Virus record (IMG/VR): IMGVR_UViG_3300042992_000069
Coordinates: 1 to 35,515 of that record
DNA length: 35,515 nt
Reading direction: 5' to 3' (one strand)
Origin: a virus
Within the stretch, counting starts at the first letter, position 1. Every line of letters begins with the position of its first letter. Positions 718 through 11,404 of this stretch are shown in pieces. Position numbers and translations under genes: made by a program. The notes beneath the pieces are model-generated. The model was not told the origin of the DNA. It made no database searches and saw nothing but the letters and a program-made list of their open reading frames with translations.

Positions 718-1164
718 ATGAAGAAGTTTGACATGGGTAAGTATGTACTCTTAGTAGGCAATGATGCTACTGAGATTTTTGACTATTACAAAGTCCCGGA
801 GATGCATGGCTTGAACAGAGCAGATGCACAAGCTGAAGAAGTAGATAAGACCAAAGGCAATGGTGTATATATTTATGGCTGGACTAACTATGATCCCGCT
901 GATAAGAAGTTAACAGCAAAAGCTCCCCACAAACCTTTCTTGTTTTTGAACATGGGTACTTTTAAGAAGTATTCTACTACAGAGAAAGCCACAGCTGTTA
1001 TGCATGAAACTATGCACATGAGTATTCTATTAAATAACTGGAAGATCATGGACAAAGAAGAAGAAGCTATTCAGTTTGCTGAAGATGAAGCAAACAAGAT
1101 CATTGAGAAACTAAAGACTACTAAGGTAGAAGCACCAAAGAAAAACTTCTTCTCTAGAAAGTGA
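718..1164 (+). CDS. HExxH metallopeptidase-like protein
   Basis: The protein (148 aa) carries a zinc-binding HExxH motif, HETMH at residues 96-100, inside the amphipathic helix typical of zincins. A second helix rich in Glu/Asp at residues 113-128 could provide the third ligand, as in gluzincins. No signal peptide is visible, so it probably acts in the cytoplasm. Family and substrate are not recognised. The start codon lies four bases after the TTTGTATATTA element at 703-713, so a leaderless transcript is possible. The stop overlaps the GTG start of the next gene, so the two are probably translationally coupled. Catalytic activity is inferred from the motif only. Confidence 0.6.
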   Translation: MKKFDMGKYVLLVGNDATEIFDYYKVPEMHGLNRADAQAEEVDKTKGNGVYIYGWTNYDPADKKLTAKAPHKPFLFLNMGTFKKYSTTEKATAVMHETMHMSILLNNWKIMDKEEEAIQFAEDEANKIIEKLKTTKVEAPKKNFFSRK

Positions 1165-1829
1165 AAGTCTACTTTGATCACATTAATGGGTTTGGTAAAG
1201 TAAGTGATCTAGAAGTTATAGTCAATTGTGCTTATGGTATACTAGATCCTAATGAATCTTCTACAGATGCACTTAAACAAGGCTGGATTCCCTGGGAGGG
1301 TAGATGGTACAATGAAAGAAGTACCCGGATTAATTTATCTGAGTACTCCCCATCAAAGACAACTAAGAAATTATCAAAGAGAGTTATAGTTCAAGCAGGT
1401 AATGTAGCTGCTGAAAGAGAAAAGTATTCTGAGCTCTATGAGAAGTATTGTGACTATCATGGGTTTAAACGGGATATTAGTTTATCATCATTTGAAGATT
1501 GCTCTGTTATAGAATACTGGGATGGAGATCTAATAGGGATAAGTTTATACAAAACATTCAATGATCAATTTGTGGCATACCAGTTTATATGGGATTATGC
1601 TAATCCTAAATTATCACTAGGTACTGTAGCTCAAATGTATGAATGTGAAACAGCTAGAATATTAGGCTGTGAATATGTATATTTGTTGGGTGGGTATGAG
1701 CAGTGTTGTTTGTATAAATCTAATTATTCTGGGTTTGAGTTTTGGACAGGTAGAGAATGGTCAACAGATATAGAGTTATATAAGACACTAGTAGAGCGGG
1801 ATGAAAAAATTAAAATGGAACTACCATGA
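1161..1829 (+). CDS. Aminoacyl-tRNA-protein transferase-like (Bpt/ATE family)
   Basis: This 222-residue protein follows the leucyl/arginyl-tRNA-protein transferase pattern along most of its length. Residues 38-74 match the QGW-x-x-x-G-x-x-Y and R-x-x-x-x-x-Y/F-x-P-x-K/R-x-x-x-x region. Residues 92-112 match the LY-x-x-Y...F-x-x-F region. Residues 145-195 match the GNAT-like core: the D-Y-x-x-P-x-L-SLGT motif, the ETAR helix, EYVYLLGGY, and YKSNYSGFEFW. Known members add Leu or Arg to protein N-termini and so create N-degrons. The N-terminal cysteine cluster of bacterial Bpt is missing; Cys23 is the only Cys in the first 95 residues. The start is GTG, overlapping the upstream stop (GTGA). Family placement is good; substrate and activity are inference. 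Confidence 0.65.
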   Translation: MKVYFDHINGFGKVSDLEVIVNCAYGILDPNESSTDALKQGWIPWEGRWYNERSTRINLSEYSPSKTTKKLSKRVIVQAGNVAAEREKYSELYEKYCDYHGFKRDISLSSFEDCSVIEYWDGDLIGISLYKTFNDQFVAYQFIWDYANPKLSLGTVAQMYECETARILGCEYVYLLGGYEQCCLYKSNYSGFEFWTGREWSTDIELYKTLVERDEKIKMELP

Positions 1830-6693: not shown

Positions 6694-7182
6694 ATGAAAA
6701 ACTTAATTATACTTTCTTTACTACTAGTATTTATCACTTCTTGTTCATTAGAAAGAAGACTTGAAAAATACTGTCCATTATGTACTCAGAAAGATAGTAT
6801 AGTTACAATAACACAAATTAGAGATACAACTATTAATATCCCGGGAGAAACTGTATATATAGAAGACACATTATTCTGTGATTCACTAGGTAATGTATAT
6901 GCCTCTAGACTAGCAGAGAAAGATGGAACTATTATTAAGTTACAATCAAGAGTTAGAGACAATAAATACAAAGTAATTGCCCGCGTAGATACTATCTACA
7001 GAACTGTAAGAGGCAATACTATTTATAAAACTAGATTAGTAACAAAAACTCAAAAGCCACAAAAGATAAAATACATCCCAGGTTGGGTCAATTTCCTAGC
7101 ATGGTTGGGTGGTATATGGTTAATAATTATTATATTATATATTATATACCGTCTGATTAAAGCTCAAATACCTACAATATGA
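6694..7182 (+). CDS. Unimolecular spanin (u-spanin)
   Basis: A lipoprotein signal (hydrophobic residues 3-14, lipobox ITSC with Cys17) is followed by a periplasmic part of about 110 residues rich in Thr/Val/Arg with strand and coiled segments, and a C-terminal transmembrane helix at about 132-154. An outer-membrane lipid anchor plus an inner-membrane helix in one chain is the defining layout of a u-spanin, which fuses the two membranes in the last step of lysis. The start at 6694 is chosen because it gives the intact signal and lies just after the previous stop. It overlaps the holin by four bases. Confidence 0.8.
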   Translation: MKNLIILSLLLVFITSCSLERRLEKYCPLCTQKDSIVTITQIRDTTINIPGETVYIEDTLFCDSLGNVYASRLAEKDGTIIKLQSRVRDNKYKVIARVDTIYRTVRGNTIYKTRLVTKTQKPQKIKYIPGWVNFLAWLGGIWLIIIILYIIYRLIKAQIPTI

Positions 7183-7676
7183 AAACAAATATAACTTTAG
7201 GAATCTTGGCAGTTTCTTCTTTCTTTGCACCAATTGAAATTATGGTTCTTGTTTTAATGTTTATAATCTTTGTAGATACTGTAGTTAAACTAATTTCCCT
7301 TAGAAAAATAGCTAAACAGACTAATAGAAAATACAGAGATGTATTTCAATCTAGAATTCTTAGACAGGGATATGTGTACAAATCTCTAGGGTATTATATC
7401 ACTGCAGGTGTAGTGTTTCCATTAGACTATTATGCATTAACTCCATTTGCAAATAGCTTACTTGACTTCTTAGGTTTTTCTTTTGTAATTTCTGTACCAG
7501 CTATTTTAACTAATATCCTACTAGGCATATTCTCAATTATAGAACTAGCTTCTATTAATGAAAACTGGTTTGATATTACCGGAAACAATGTACTTAGAAA
7601 AACTTGTGATACTGTAAAGAAATTAAGAAAAGGTTTAAAAGAAGCATCAGACACTTACAAAGACATCAAGAACTAA
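7179..7676 (+). CDS. Holin
   Basis: The 165-residue protein has hydrophobic segments at about 5-37, 68-88 and 100-124 and a charged C-terminal tail (KKLRKGLKEASDTYKDIKN). The pattern, with FFAPIE near the start and FVDT in the first helix followed by a basic loop, matches the phage holin family common in Bacteroidota phages. It opens the inner membrane so the amidase can reach peptidoglycan. It lies between spanin and amidase, with ATGA and TAATG overlaps, which makes the assignment strong although the family is diverse. Confidence 0.75.
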   Translation: MKTNITLGILAVSSFFAPIEIMVLVLMFIIFVDTVVKLISLRKIAKQTNRKYRDVFQSRILRQGYVYKSLGYYITAGVVFPLDYYALTPFANSLLDFLGFSFVISVPAILTNILLGIFSIIELASINENWFDITGNNVLRKTCDTVKKLRKGLKEASDTYKDIKN

Positions 7677-8323
7677 TGAAACTGGATATTAATAAAATTG
7701 TTCAGGCAAGATTAGACAAAGATCAGTTCTATGCTGAAGAGTCTAAGAAGACACAAATCTACCTACATCATACAGCAGGTGGAGGCAATGCAGTAGCTGT
7801 ATCAAGATACTGGAATAGTAATGATACAAGAATAGCAACTGCATTTGTTATTGGTGAGAATGGGGACATTGTACAATGTTTCTCATCTAAACATTGGGCT
7901 TGGCATTTAGGTATAGATTCAGAAGACTTTACTAAGAATGGTGCAAAGTATCAGAACTTAAATAAACTTTCTGTAGGTATAGAAGTTTGTAATTGGGGTC
8001 CATTAAAACTCCGCAATGGCAAATACTATAACTATGTAAATGGTGTAGTTAAACCAGAGAATGTAACAACTCTTGAGACACCATTTAAAGGTACTAAATA
8101 TTGGTACAAATATTCAGATGCACAGATTGAATCTCTAAGACAACTAGTAGAATACTTATGTGAAACATATGATATTCCTAAGACTTATAGATCAGAAATC
8201 TGGGCAATTGATAGAGAAGCATTTAAAGGGGTTCCTGGAATCTATACACATAACTCTGTTAGAAAAGATAAGAGTGATATGTATCCAGATCCTAAAGTAA
8301 TAGACATGTTAAAAAACCTATAA
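7676..8323 (+). CDS. N-acetylmuramoyl-L-alanine amidase (endolysin)
   Basis: Amidase_2 family. Residues 27-35 (QIYLHHTAG) hold the first zinc histidine (His31 or 32). The core motifs ATAFVIGENGDIVQ and SVGIEVCNWG follow. Residues 191-206 (THNSVRKDKSDMYPDP) give His192, Lys199 and Asp201, matching the H...K-x-D zinc and catalytic residues of T7 lysozyme-like amidases. It cuts the bond between N-acetylmuramic acid and L-Ala. At 215 aa it has a single domain and no signal peptide, so release depends on the holin. An insert of about 30 residues around 111-140 enlarges the standard fold. Confidence 0.92.
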   Translation: MKLDINKIVQARLDKDQFYAEESKKTQIYLHHTAGGGNAVAVSRYWNSNDTRIATAFVIGENGDIVQCFSSKHWAWHLGIDSEDFTKNGAKYQNLNKLSVGIEVCNWGPLKLRNGKYYNYVNGVVKPENVTTLETPFKGTKYWYKYSDAQIESLRQLVEYLCETYDIPKTYRSEIWAIDREAFKGVPGIYTHNSVRKDKSDMYPDPKVIDMLKNL

Positions 8324-10297: not shown

Positions 10298-10574
10298 TCT
10301 TATTTGGCAAAACAGATCACAGATTCTTGAAGGTATCAAGAACTCTGTAATTAGAGATGAGACAGTAGAAGAAATATCTAGACTTAGATATGACATCTGT
10401 GATGAGTGTCCTAGTAAAGGTAAGAAGTGTGCAGTAAAAGGTACAGCTCCTTGCTGTAATGAATGTGGGTGTTCACTTACATTTAAAACTAGATCATTAG
10501 CAGCTTCATGTCCATTGGGTAAATGGGATGCTTTAATTACTGAAGAACAAGAAGAAGAATTAGAGAAACTATGA
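10281..10574 (+). CDS. Zinc-binding cysteine-rich protein
   Basis: In 97 residues there are eight cysteines: 40, 43, 50, 58, 59, 62, 64 and 77. They form CDEC, a middle CCNECGC cluster and CPLGKW, which fit one or two zinc sites (C-x2-C, C-x2-C and neighbours). The flanks are helical (NLIWQNRSQILEGIK; EEQEEELEKL). I recall this arrangement as a conserved small protein of Bacteroidota phages, without function. Its position between the IHF-like protein and the nuclease suggests a role in DNA handling. Reading frames overlap by four bases at its end (ATGA). Confidence 0.65.
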   Translation: MKNVLNLIWQNRSQILEGIKNSVIRDETVEEISRLRYDICDECPSKGKKCAVKGTAPCCNECGCSLTFKTRSLAASCPLGKWDALITEEQEEELEKL

Positions 10575-11404
10575 GTATAGTATTTAATGCCAAAGATCAT
10601 AGCTATAAGAGCAATGATGGGTCAGAAATTAATTGGATAAGTGTTACTACACTAGTATCTCATTTTAAAAAACCTTTTGATGCAGAGAAGATTGCAAAGA
10701 AGGTATGCAAGAATAAGAGATCTAAGTGGTATGGCTTTTCACCAAAAGATATTATATCTATTTGGAATGCAGAATCAGAAAGAGCAGTTACTCTTGGAAC
10801 ATTCTATCATAACCAAAGAGAAGCTGACTTATGTTCTTTAGCTTCAATAGAAAGAGAAGGTGTTACAGTTCCAGTGTTTAAACCTAATGATTTAGCAAAT
10901 GGAATTAAGACAGCTCCTTTACAAAAATTAGAACCAGGCGTGTATCCAGAGCATATGGTTTATCTTAAATCAGCAGGCATCTGTGGTCAGTCAGATCTCG
11001 TAGAAGTAGTTAATGGTAAAGTGAACATTATTGATTACAAAACTAATAAAGAGATTAAGACTGAATCTTACAAAGATTGGGAGGGAGTTTCTGAAAAGCT
11101 ACTCTCTCCTGTATCTACATTAGATGACTGTAATTTTAATCACTACAGTTTACAGTTAAGTATCTATATGTATATGATACTAAAACACAATCCTAAATTG
11201 CAACCTGGGAAAATGTTTATCCATCATATACTATTTGAGACAGAGGGGGAAGATAGATATGGGTATCCTTTAACAAGCTATGATGACAATGGAGATCCAA
11301 TTGTTAAAGATGTAGTACAAATGGAGATACCATATCTAAAAGATGAAGTAACAGCTATTATGCATTACATACATGATAATAAAGATAAAATTAAAAAGAA
11401 ATGA
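10571..11404 (+). CDS. PD-(D/E)XK nuclease (RecB/Cas4-like)
   Basis: The 277-residue protein shows the RecB-family nuclease motifs: Glu127 in YPEHMVY, Asp142 in CGQSDLVE, Asp155-Tyr-Lys157 in IIDYKTNK, and Gln195 in SLQLSIYMYMI. These are the metal-binding E/D-D-x-K residues plus the motif V Q-x-x-x-Y. Such enzymes degrade or process DNA ends, and a nuclease of this type near the terminase is seen in crAss-like phages. It may trim replication intermediates or host DNA. It lacks a helicase domain and the Cas4 cysteine cluster. Family is confident; substrate unknown. Confidence 0.85.
   Translation: MSIVFNAKDHSYKSNDGSEINWISVTTLVSHFKKPFDAEKIAKKVCKNKRSKWYGFSPKDIISIWNAESERAVTLGTFYHNQREADLCSLASIEREGVTVPVFKPNDLANGIKTAPLQKLEPGVYPEHMVYLKSAGICGQSDLVEVVNGKVNIIDYKTNKEIKTESYKDWEGVSEKLLSPVSTLDDCNFNHYSLQLSIYMYMILKHNPKLQPGKMFIHHILFETEGEDRYGYPLTSYDDNGDPIVKDVVQMEIPYLKDEVTAIMHYIHDNKDKIKKK

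Follow-up and report, generated by a model that had tools for sequence, protein, structure and literature searches.

A probable aminoacyl-tRNA-protein transferase of the ATE/Bpt superfamily and its SH3-like partner gene in crAss-like phages

The enzymes closest to the phage protein considered here are bacterial Bpt and eukaryotic ATE1. Bpt was reported to add leucine to N-terminal aspartate and glutamate for ClpS (PMC12493166). In yeast ATE1 the zinc site is composed of C20, C23, C94 and C95, and helix αf of the enzyme enters the groove of the tRNA acceptor stem (PMC10115844). On the phage side, ClpS itself is encoded by other phages, among them jumbo phages (PMC7824862), and phage SPO1 has a ClpCP modulator (PMC6873191). 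If the degradation reading discussed below holds, a phage transferase would resemble these proteins in steering the host Clp; however, phage Clp adaptors deliver substrates to Clp or modulate it, whereas the transferase would mark the substrate itself with the signal. In the limited set of open-access papers that was searched, no description of a phage-encoded ATE-type transferase was found, and the phage branch, the loss of the N-terminal metal region and the SH3-like partner appear undescribed there; the type of chemistry is familiar.

The window, i.e., the whole stretch of 35,515 nucleotides analysed here (positions 1 to 35,515 of the IMG/VR virus record IMGVR_UViG_3300042992_000069), encodes an aminoacyl-tRNA-protein transferase-like protein near its beginning, between two overlapping neighbours:

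718 to 1164, + strand: HETMH (HExxH) ORF of 148 aa, the overlapping upstream neighbour, a variable partner
1161 to 1829, + strand: aminoacyl-tRNA-protein transferase-like gene (ATE_C superfamily), 222 aa, GTG start
1826 to 2023, + strand: SH3-like small β-barrel protein of 65 aa, the conserved partner gene

The transferase frame shares four bases with the upstream ORF (stop at 1164) and four with the downstream one (start at 1826), and thus the complete ORF of 222 residues with overlapping neighbour frames, as read in the earlier note, is borne out by the coordinates and the translation. The same note held that the Bpt/ATE landmarks are kept and that the CxxCxxC cluster of bacterial Bpt is missing, and both can be seen in the translation, with GWIPWEGRWY at residues 41-50, RSTRINLSEYSPSK at 53-66, DYANPKLSLGT at 145-155, EYVYLLGGY at 171-179 and YKSNYSGFEFW at 185-195. 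One family scan of IMG/VR gave 494 relatives of the window transferase, the best 80 of which were retrieved; among the relatives from the two initial scans, identity to the window protein is 53-100%. In the alignment of 27 representatives of the phage family, about 60 columns show no variation. The gene is under purifying selection, with dN between about 0.12 and 0.19 and dS between about 0.7 and 2.3 in five of the six pairs compared (for the sixth pair dS was not estimable, so the figures are those of five pairs). Pfam ATE_C (PF04377) matches residues 108-193 of the window protein with 37.4 bits against the cut-off of 25 (E = 4.4e-9), and it matches all 27 representatives. Since such an E value, the matches in 27/27 members, some 490 relatives and dN below dS come together, the resemblance is no accident.

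PHROGs has no family for the transferase, a pattern scan of GTDB genomes with the phage transferase family gave no relative, and neither did a scan of viral contigs with the Bacteroidota-type ATE. None of the annotated phage records carries the phage transferase; the matches, in two records, are misassigned Acinetobacter contigs, one of which was inspected. This record, CAKLQH020000030.1 (L266), is labelled as Acinetobacter phage MD-2021a and contains the host chromosome genes ftsK, trxB, aat and bpt, and is therefore misassigned at least in part; the match lies in the host trxB-aat-bpt operon, and the record was rejected as an annotated-phage homologue.

Profiles and predicted structure lead to the same superfamily. 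The NCBIfam arginyltransferase models align with the window protein over residues 54-200, and the best score of the arginyltransferase/leucyltransferase equivalogs, 32.8 bits, is far under their cut-offs, which are 170 or higher. Searched against the PDB, a profile built from the phage family picked up yeast ATE1 (E 1.7e-4). The AlphaFold2 model built from the phage alignment has pLDDT 84.8 and pTM 0.83, residues 10-20 being poor, and Foldseek against the PDB placed human ATE1 at the top (E 8.2e-9, TM 0.60 by query length), followed by Kl and Sc ATE1 and then by FemX, LFTR and lysyl-PG synthases; all these best matches are users of charged tRNA as donor. With Aat (LFTR), FemX and lysyl-PG synthase the phage protein has in common the fold and, as it would seem, the use of charged tRNA, but their fold scores are weaker than those of ATE1, and Pfam Leu_Phe_trans gave no match in the window protein. 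The earlier note had looked for a match of more than 150 residues beyond general GNATs; this is found in structure and nearly reached in sequence, where the alignment covers 147 residues, and its view of a Bpt/ATE-kind transferase devoid of the cysteine cluster agrees with that alignment and with ATE1 as the top PDB fold. The window protein almost certainly belongs to the ATE/Bpt aminoacyl-tRNA-protein transferase superfamily, and very probably it is a real tRNA-dependent aminoacyl transferase, the use of charged tRNA being suggested by the enzymes that it resembles. Judged by its sequence, it is not a Bpt equivalog: the scores lie under the NCBIfam cut-offs, ATE_N was matched by 0/27 phage members, and the CxxCxxC / C-C cluster is missing in the alignment as well.

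The alignment, composed of the phage family, 17 Bacteroidota and five proteobacterial ATE_C proteins (22 cellular sequences in all), separates what is common from what is specific to phages. The elements that matter most are:

1173 to 1205, + strand: N-terminal FDHxxGFGKVS (residues 5-15), a motif with little variation across the phage family and not present in cellular ATE/Bpt
1356 to 1376, + strand: short basic helix KTTKKLS (residues 66-72), a helix in the model, aligned with the cellular SQRR/K region
1614 to 1622, + strand: SLG motif (residues 152-154), common to cellular ATE/Bpt
1692 to 1718, + strand: GY(x5)YK core (residues 178-186), with G, Y, Y and K invariant in phages and 22/22 cellular sequences

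Compared with Bpt and ATE1, the phage protein is alike in scoring over the ATE_C cut-off, in the GNAT-type fold and in the universal G, R, SLG, Y, GY..YK, E and W residues: G41, R56, G154, Y174, G178, Y179, Y185, K186 and W200 are common to the phages and all 22 cellular sequences, and E193 (91%) and S152 (77%) are nearly universal in the latter. It differs in having no recognisable ATE_N, no metal-binding cysteine cluster and a shorter loop before YK, and it possesses motifs of its own, i.e., FDHxxGFGKVSD at the N-terminus and WTGxEWSxD at the C-terminus, which, like the shortened loop, were seen in the phage family only. Model confidence is low over the FDHxxGFGKVS stretch; FDHxxG is retained also in the divergent L389 and L391 groups. 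Four cysteines (162, 170, 182 and 183) are invariant in the phage family and might conceivably make up a relocated metal site; the last two form a phage-specific CC within the GY(x5)YK core of the main family, a pair that is not universal, as the GC-rich, more distant phage group reads GGYENASIYK. The helix of residues 66-72 occupies the position of the ATE1 helix αf, and by analogy it may serve in binding of the tRNA acceptor.

The Bacteroidota ATE_C proteins have the core residues in common with the phage proteins, and neither group has CxxCxxC. Because all 17 Bacteroidota homologues are without the cluster, its loss is no phage peculiarity, and the idea of a phage novelty was rejected. In contrast, the Bacteroidota proteins form their own clade, and in the IQ-TREE tree, which is arbitrarily rooted and brings long branches together, the phage transferases make up one deep, separate branch (100/100) on a very long stem of about 4.7 changes per site. 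With all phage sequences in one such branch, the tree gives no support to transfer from Bacteroidota hosts as the origin of the gene.

The gene that keeps the transferase company is the one downstream. An SH3-like ORF lies directly after the transferase, 0-17 bases past the end of the match, in 80 of 82 non-redundant loci. The two apparent exceptions (L135 and L136/L137), contigs in which a T4-type portal but no crAss capsid was detected, have an SH3-like gene too; it is diverged, lies right beside the transferase and is divergently oriented. In a third group, seven contigs with GC of about 0.53-0.58, a more distant transferase (about 32-41% identity to the main family) is likewise followed by an SH3-like gene; two records of this group were tested for a T4 portal, and none was detected. 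Since the genes adjoin in crAss-like, T4-portal and GC-rich phages, the pair was kept through inversion and across phage types, and this conservation is the strongest evidence that the transferase and the SH3-like protein act together. The AlphaFold2 model of the SH3-like protein (pLDDT 84.7) contains five strands in SH3-like order that form a barrel. Foldseek with this model gave no significant match in the PDB; its top matches, with E of 0.2-1, include the KorB C-terminal, PcrA tudor and CarD SH3-like domains among unrelated ones. SH3-like loci with no transferase nearby were also seen (11/80), and in ten such records searched whole the transferase was found in 0/10. Some further arrangements were observed around these genes. 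In two crAss-like contigs (L345:2059-2436 and L338:2059-2436) a SET-domain protein (PF00856, E 2e-8) is encoded directly upstream of the SH3-like gene, at the usual place of the transferase, the 108.7-kb record having no transferase. A distant transferase-like protein of 268 aa with no Pfam match (L391:8001-8807; L432-L435) lies near a T4-type portal and a baseplate gene; in L391, the locus examined of this distant T4-portal group (four IMG/VR loci), no SH3-like partner was detected.

The upstream neighbour is less constant. The HETMH ORF has no family match in Pfam or PHROGs, and an HExxH ORF is placed directly upstream of the transferase in 28 of the 69 loci with enough upstream sequence; in some relatives it lies elsewhere, as in L104 and L100, where it is about 0.9 kb downstream from where the transferase starts, and other upstream genes occur, e.g., a PD-(D/E)XK nuclease. 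The three-gene module suggested in the earlier note is therefore retained for the SH3-like partner, with 80/82 loci and a barrel model, and given up for the HExxH peptidase, which was rejected as a fixed member. Several other ORFs of the window may be listed here. A nuclease-like ORF of the PD-(D/E)XK kind (PF12705, E 9e-6) is present at 10571-11404, and in several relatives a gene of related type immediately precedes the transferase. A 91-aa ORF at 2233-2508 shows weak likeness to phage co-chaperonin GroES (PHROG E 0.004) and lies near the transferase in many related loci, and a DUF3310 domain protein (2502-2810, E 4e-11) is frequently near it.

The window is crAss-like, with the Crassvirales-type capsid (Crass_capsid, 7e-31), two ring proteins (CrAss_Ring_2, 3e-21, and CrAss_Ring_1, 3e-10), portal (phrog_6547, 1e-94) and TerL (phrog_6681, 4e-59), and uncultured freshwater phages related to crAssphage carry the transferase, besides at least two other kinds of phage. 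The crAss-like order was reported as infecting Bacteroidetes (PMC10136315). A Shine-Dalgarno-like motif precedes only 1 of 45 gene starts in the window, which is rarer than at random positions (7%), and together with the crAss affiliation this points to a Bacteroidota host. A repeated TTTGTATATTA box before the ATGs at 718 and 3333 was considered and dropped, for it is not above chance (5 against 4.1 expected). As neighbours of the transferase, the window encodes appendage, holin, amidase, terminase and portal proteins. The lysis pair at 7179-8323 consists of a holin-like ORF (7179-7676), slightly under cut-off, and an N-acetylmuramoyl-L-alanine amidase (7676-8323, E 8e-21). The transferase is on the strand of the capsid gene and 8-28 kb upstream of it in the window and in 12/12 long relatives, i.e., the long contigs with a crAss capsid match over the cut-off.

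What could such an enzyme do in the infected cell? Among 296 Bacteroidota genomes sampled, ClpS was found in 284, Aat in 258 and ATE_C in 17. ClpS being common and ATE_C rare, in most cases the phage transferase would thus supply an activity missing from the host, in a cell able to read its product. We propose that the GNAT-type domain would bind the acceptor stem of a charged host tRNA and move the amino acid onto acceptor proteins, most likely at N-terminal acidic residues, as with Bpt and ATE1, and that the product would be an N-degron read by host ClpS and the Clp protease. The SH3-like protein would most likely provide acceptor or tRNA binding, which in cellular enzymes would be the job of the missing ATE N-terminal region. 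In this way the phage would add the missing N-degron branch to those Bacteroidota hosts in which ClpS and Aat are present but ATE is usually missing. A phage aminoacyl-tRNA-protein transferase that makes N-degrons for host ClpS/Clp with an SH3-like partner is the best overall explanation, which we hold to be about evenly poised between right and wrong; the degradation tagging step taken by itself, which the earlier note had also raised, is plausible and circumstantially supported, with the balance tilted slightly against it.

A link to proteolysis within the phage genomes comes from both main-family T4-portal contigs, in which a ClpA/ClpB-type AAA+ protein of 684-686 aa is encoded 2.4-2.7 kb upstream of the transferase:

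L137:3554-5608 and L135:3282-5342: ClpA/ClpB-type double-AAA+ unfoldase, apparently without N-terminal domain

The two contigs are related, so this linkage may be one event. The N-degron reading is weakened by the failure to recognise ATE_N, by the failure to find ClpP in any of the 16 records searched, by the confinement of the Clp unfoldase to this T4-portal pair (0/14 other records), and by the SH3-like genes that stand alone. Between the unfoldase and the transferase, L137:6383-7168 (− strand) and L135:5353-6138 (− strand) encode a 261-aa protein with M20/M42 metallopeptidase-like motifs seen by eye (HTDTV, GIGGDDKCG, EETGCxGS); it has no Pfam or PDB sequence match. A wider version of the proposal, which we regard as tentative and rather doubtful, is that the transferase and the SH3-like protein would constitute a mobile two-gene system of crAss-like, T4-portal and GC-rich phages writing N-terminal degrons, in which the SH3-like protein would stand in for the ATE N-terminal domain as the subunit that presents substrate or tRNA, and delivery would be to host ClpS/Clp or to the Clp unfoldase of the T4-portal phages.

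The main rival keeps the true aminoacyl-tRNA-protein transferase and changes its purpose: the targets would be phage proteins of the virion or of its assembly, or else host machinery, for instance RNA polymerase, and no degradation would follow. This is a possibility of some substance, though we would sooner bet against it than for it. The place of the crAss-like gene on the head-gene strand, upstream of the capsid, fits such modification too and thereby counts against the N-degron reading, and the structural and lysis genes around it in the window point the same way; the SET-domain gene, a protein methyltransferase gene, in the slot of the transferase in two contigs makes that slot look as if it were for protein modification generally. 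However, the T4-portal pair is beside a Clp unfoldase and, as far as the locus shows, not beside head genes, and N-degron work is what the ATE superfamily is best known for. Much less probable is that the transferase depletes charged tRNAs, or loads amino acids onto a small molecule, lipid or peptide instead of proteins. FemX and lysyl-PG synthases, which have other acceptors, are among the fold matches, and the phage-specific invariant FDHxxGFGK and WTGxEWSxD could form a different acceptor site, but the sequence relatives are the protein-modifying ATE/Bpt group and the neighbourhoods display no consistent linkage to lipid or cell-wall genes. Improbable, finally, is a diverged GNAT acyltransferase using acyl-CoA and resembling ATE in fold alone, for despite weak Acetyltransf_6 matches (E 0.0068 in the window protein; 6/27 members) and the generic GNATs that prevail among the lower-ranking viral fold matches, ATE_C gives much higher scores and matches every member (Acetyltransf_6 reaches 17 bits against a cut-off of 22), the best fold matches, ATE1 first, are aminoacyl-tRNA users, the ATE-universal GY...YK residues are invariant, and the segment in which acetyl-CoA GNATs have a Q/RxxGxG/A motif reads KLSLGTV, like the SLG of ATE.

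Returning to the N-degron reading, if the transferase is active, it would represent a viral post-translational modification with charged tRNA as donor, and a means by which phages generate degradation signals, in contrast to the Clp adaptors and proteases known from phages. An active enzyme would also be a test of ATE catalysis without the metal-binding N-terminal region, and the conserved SH3-like partner offers a tangible way to study what that region does in ATE.
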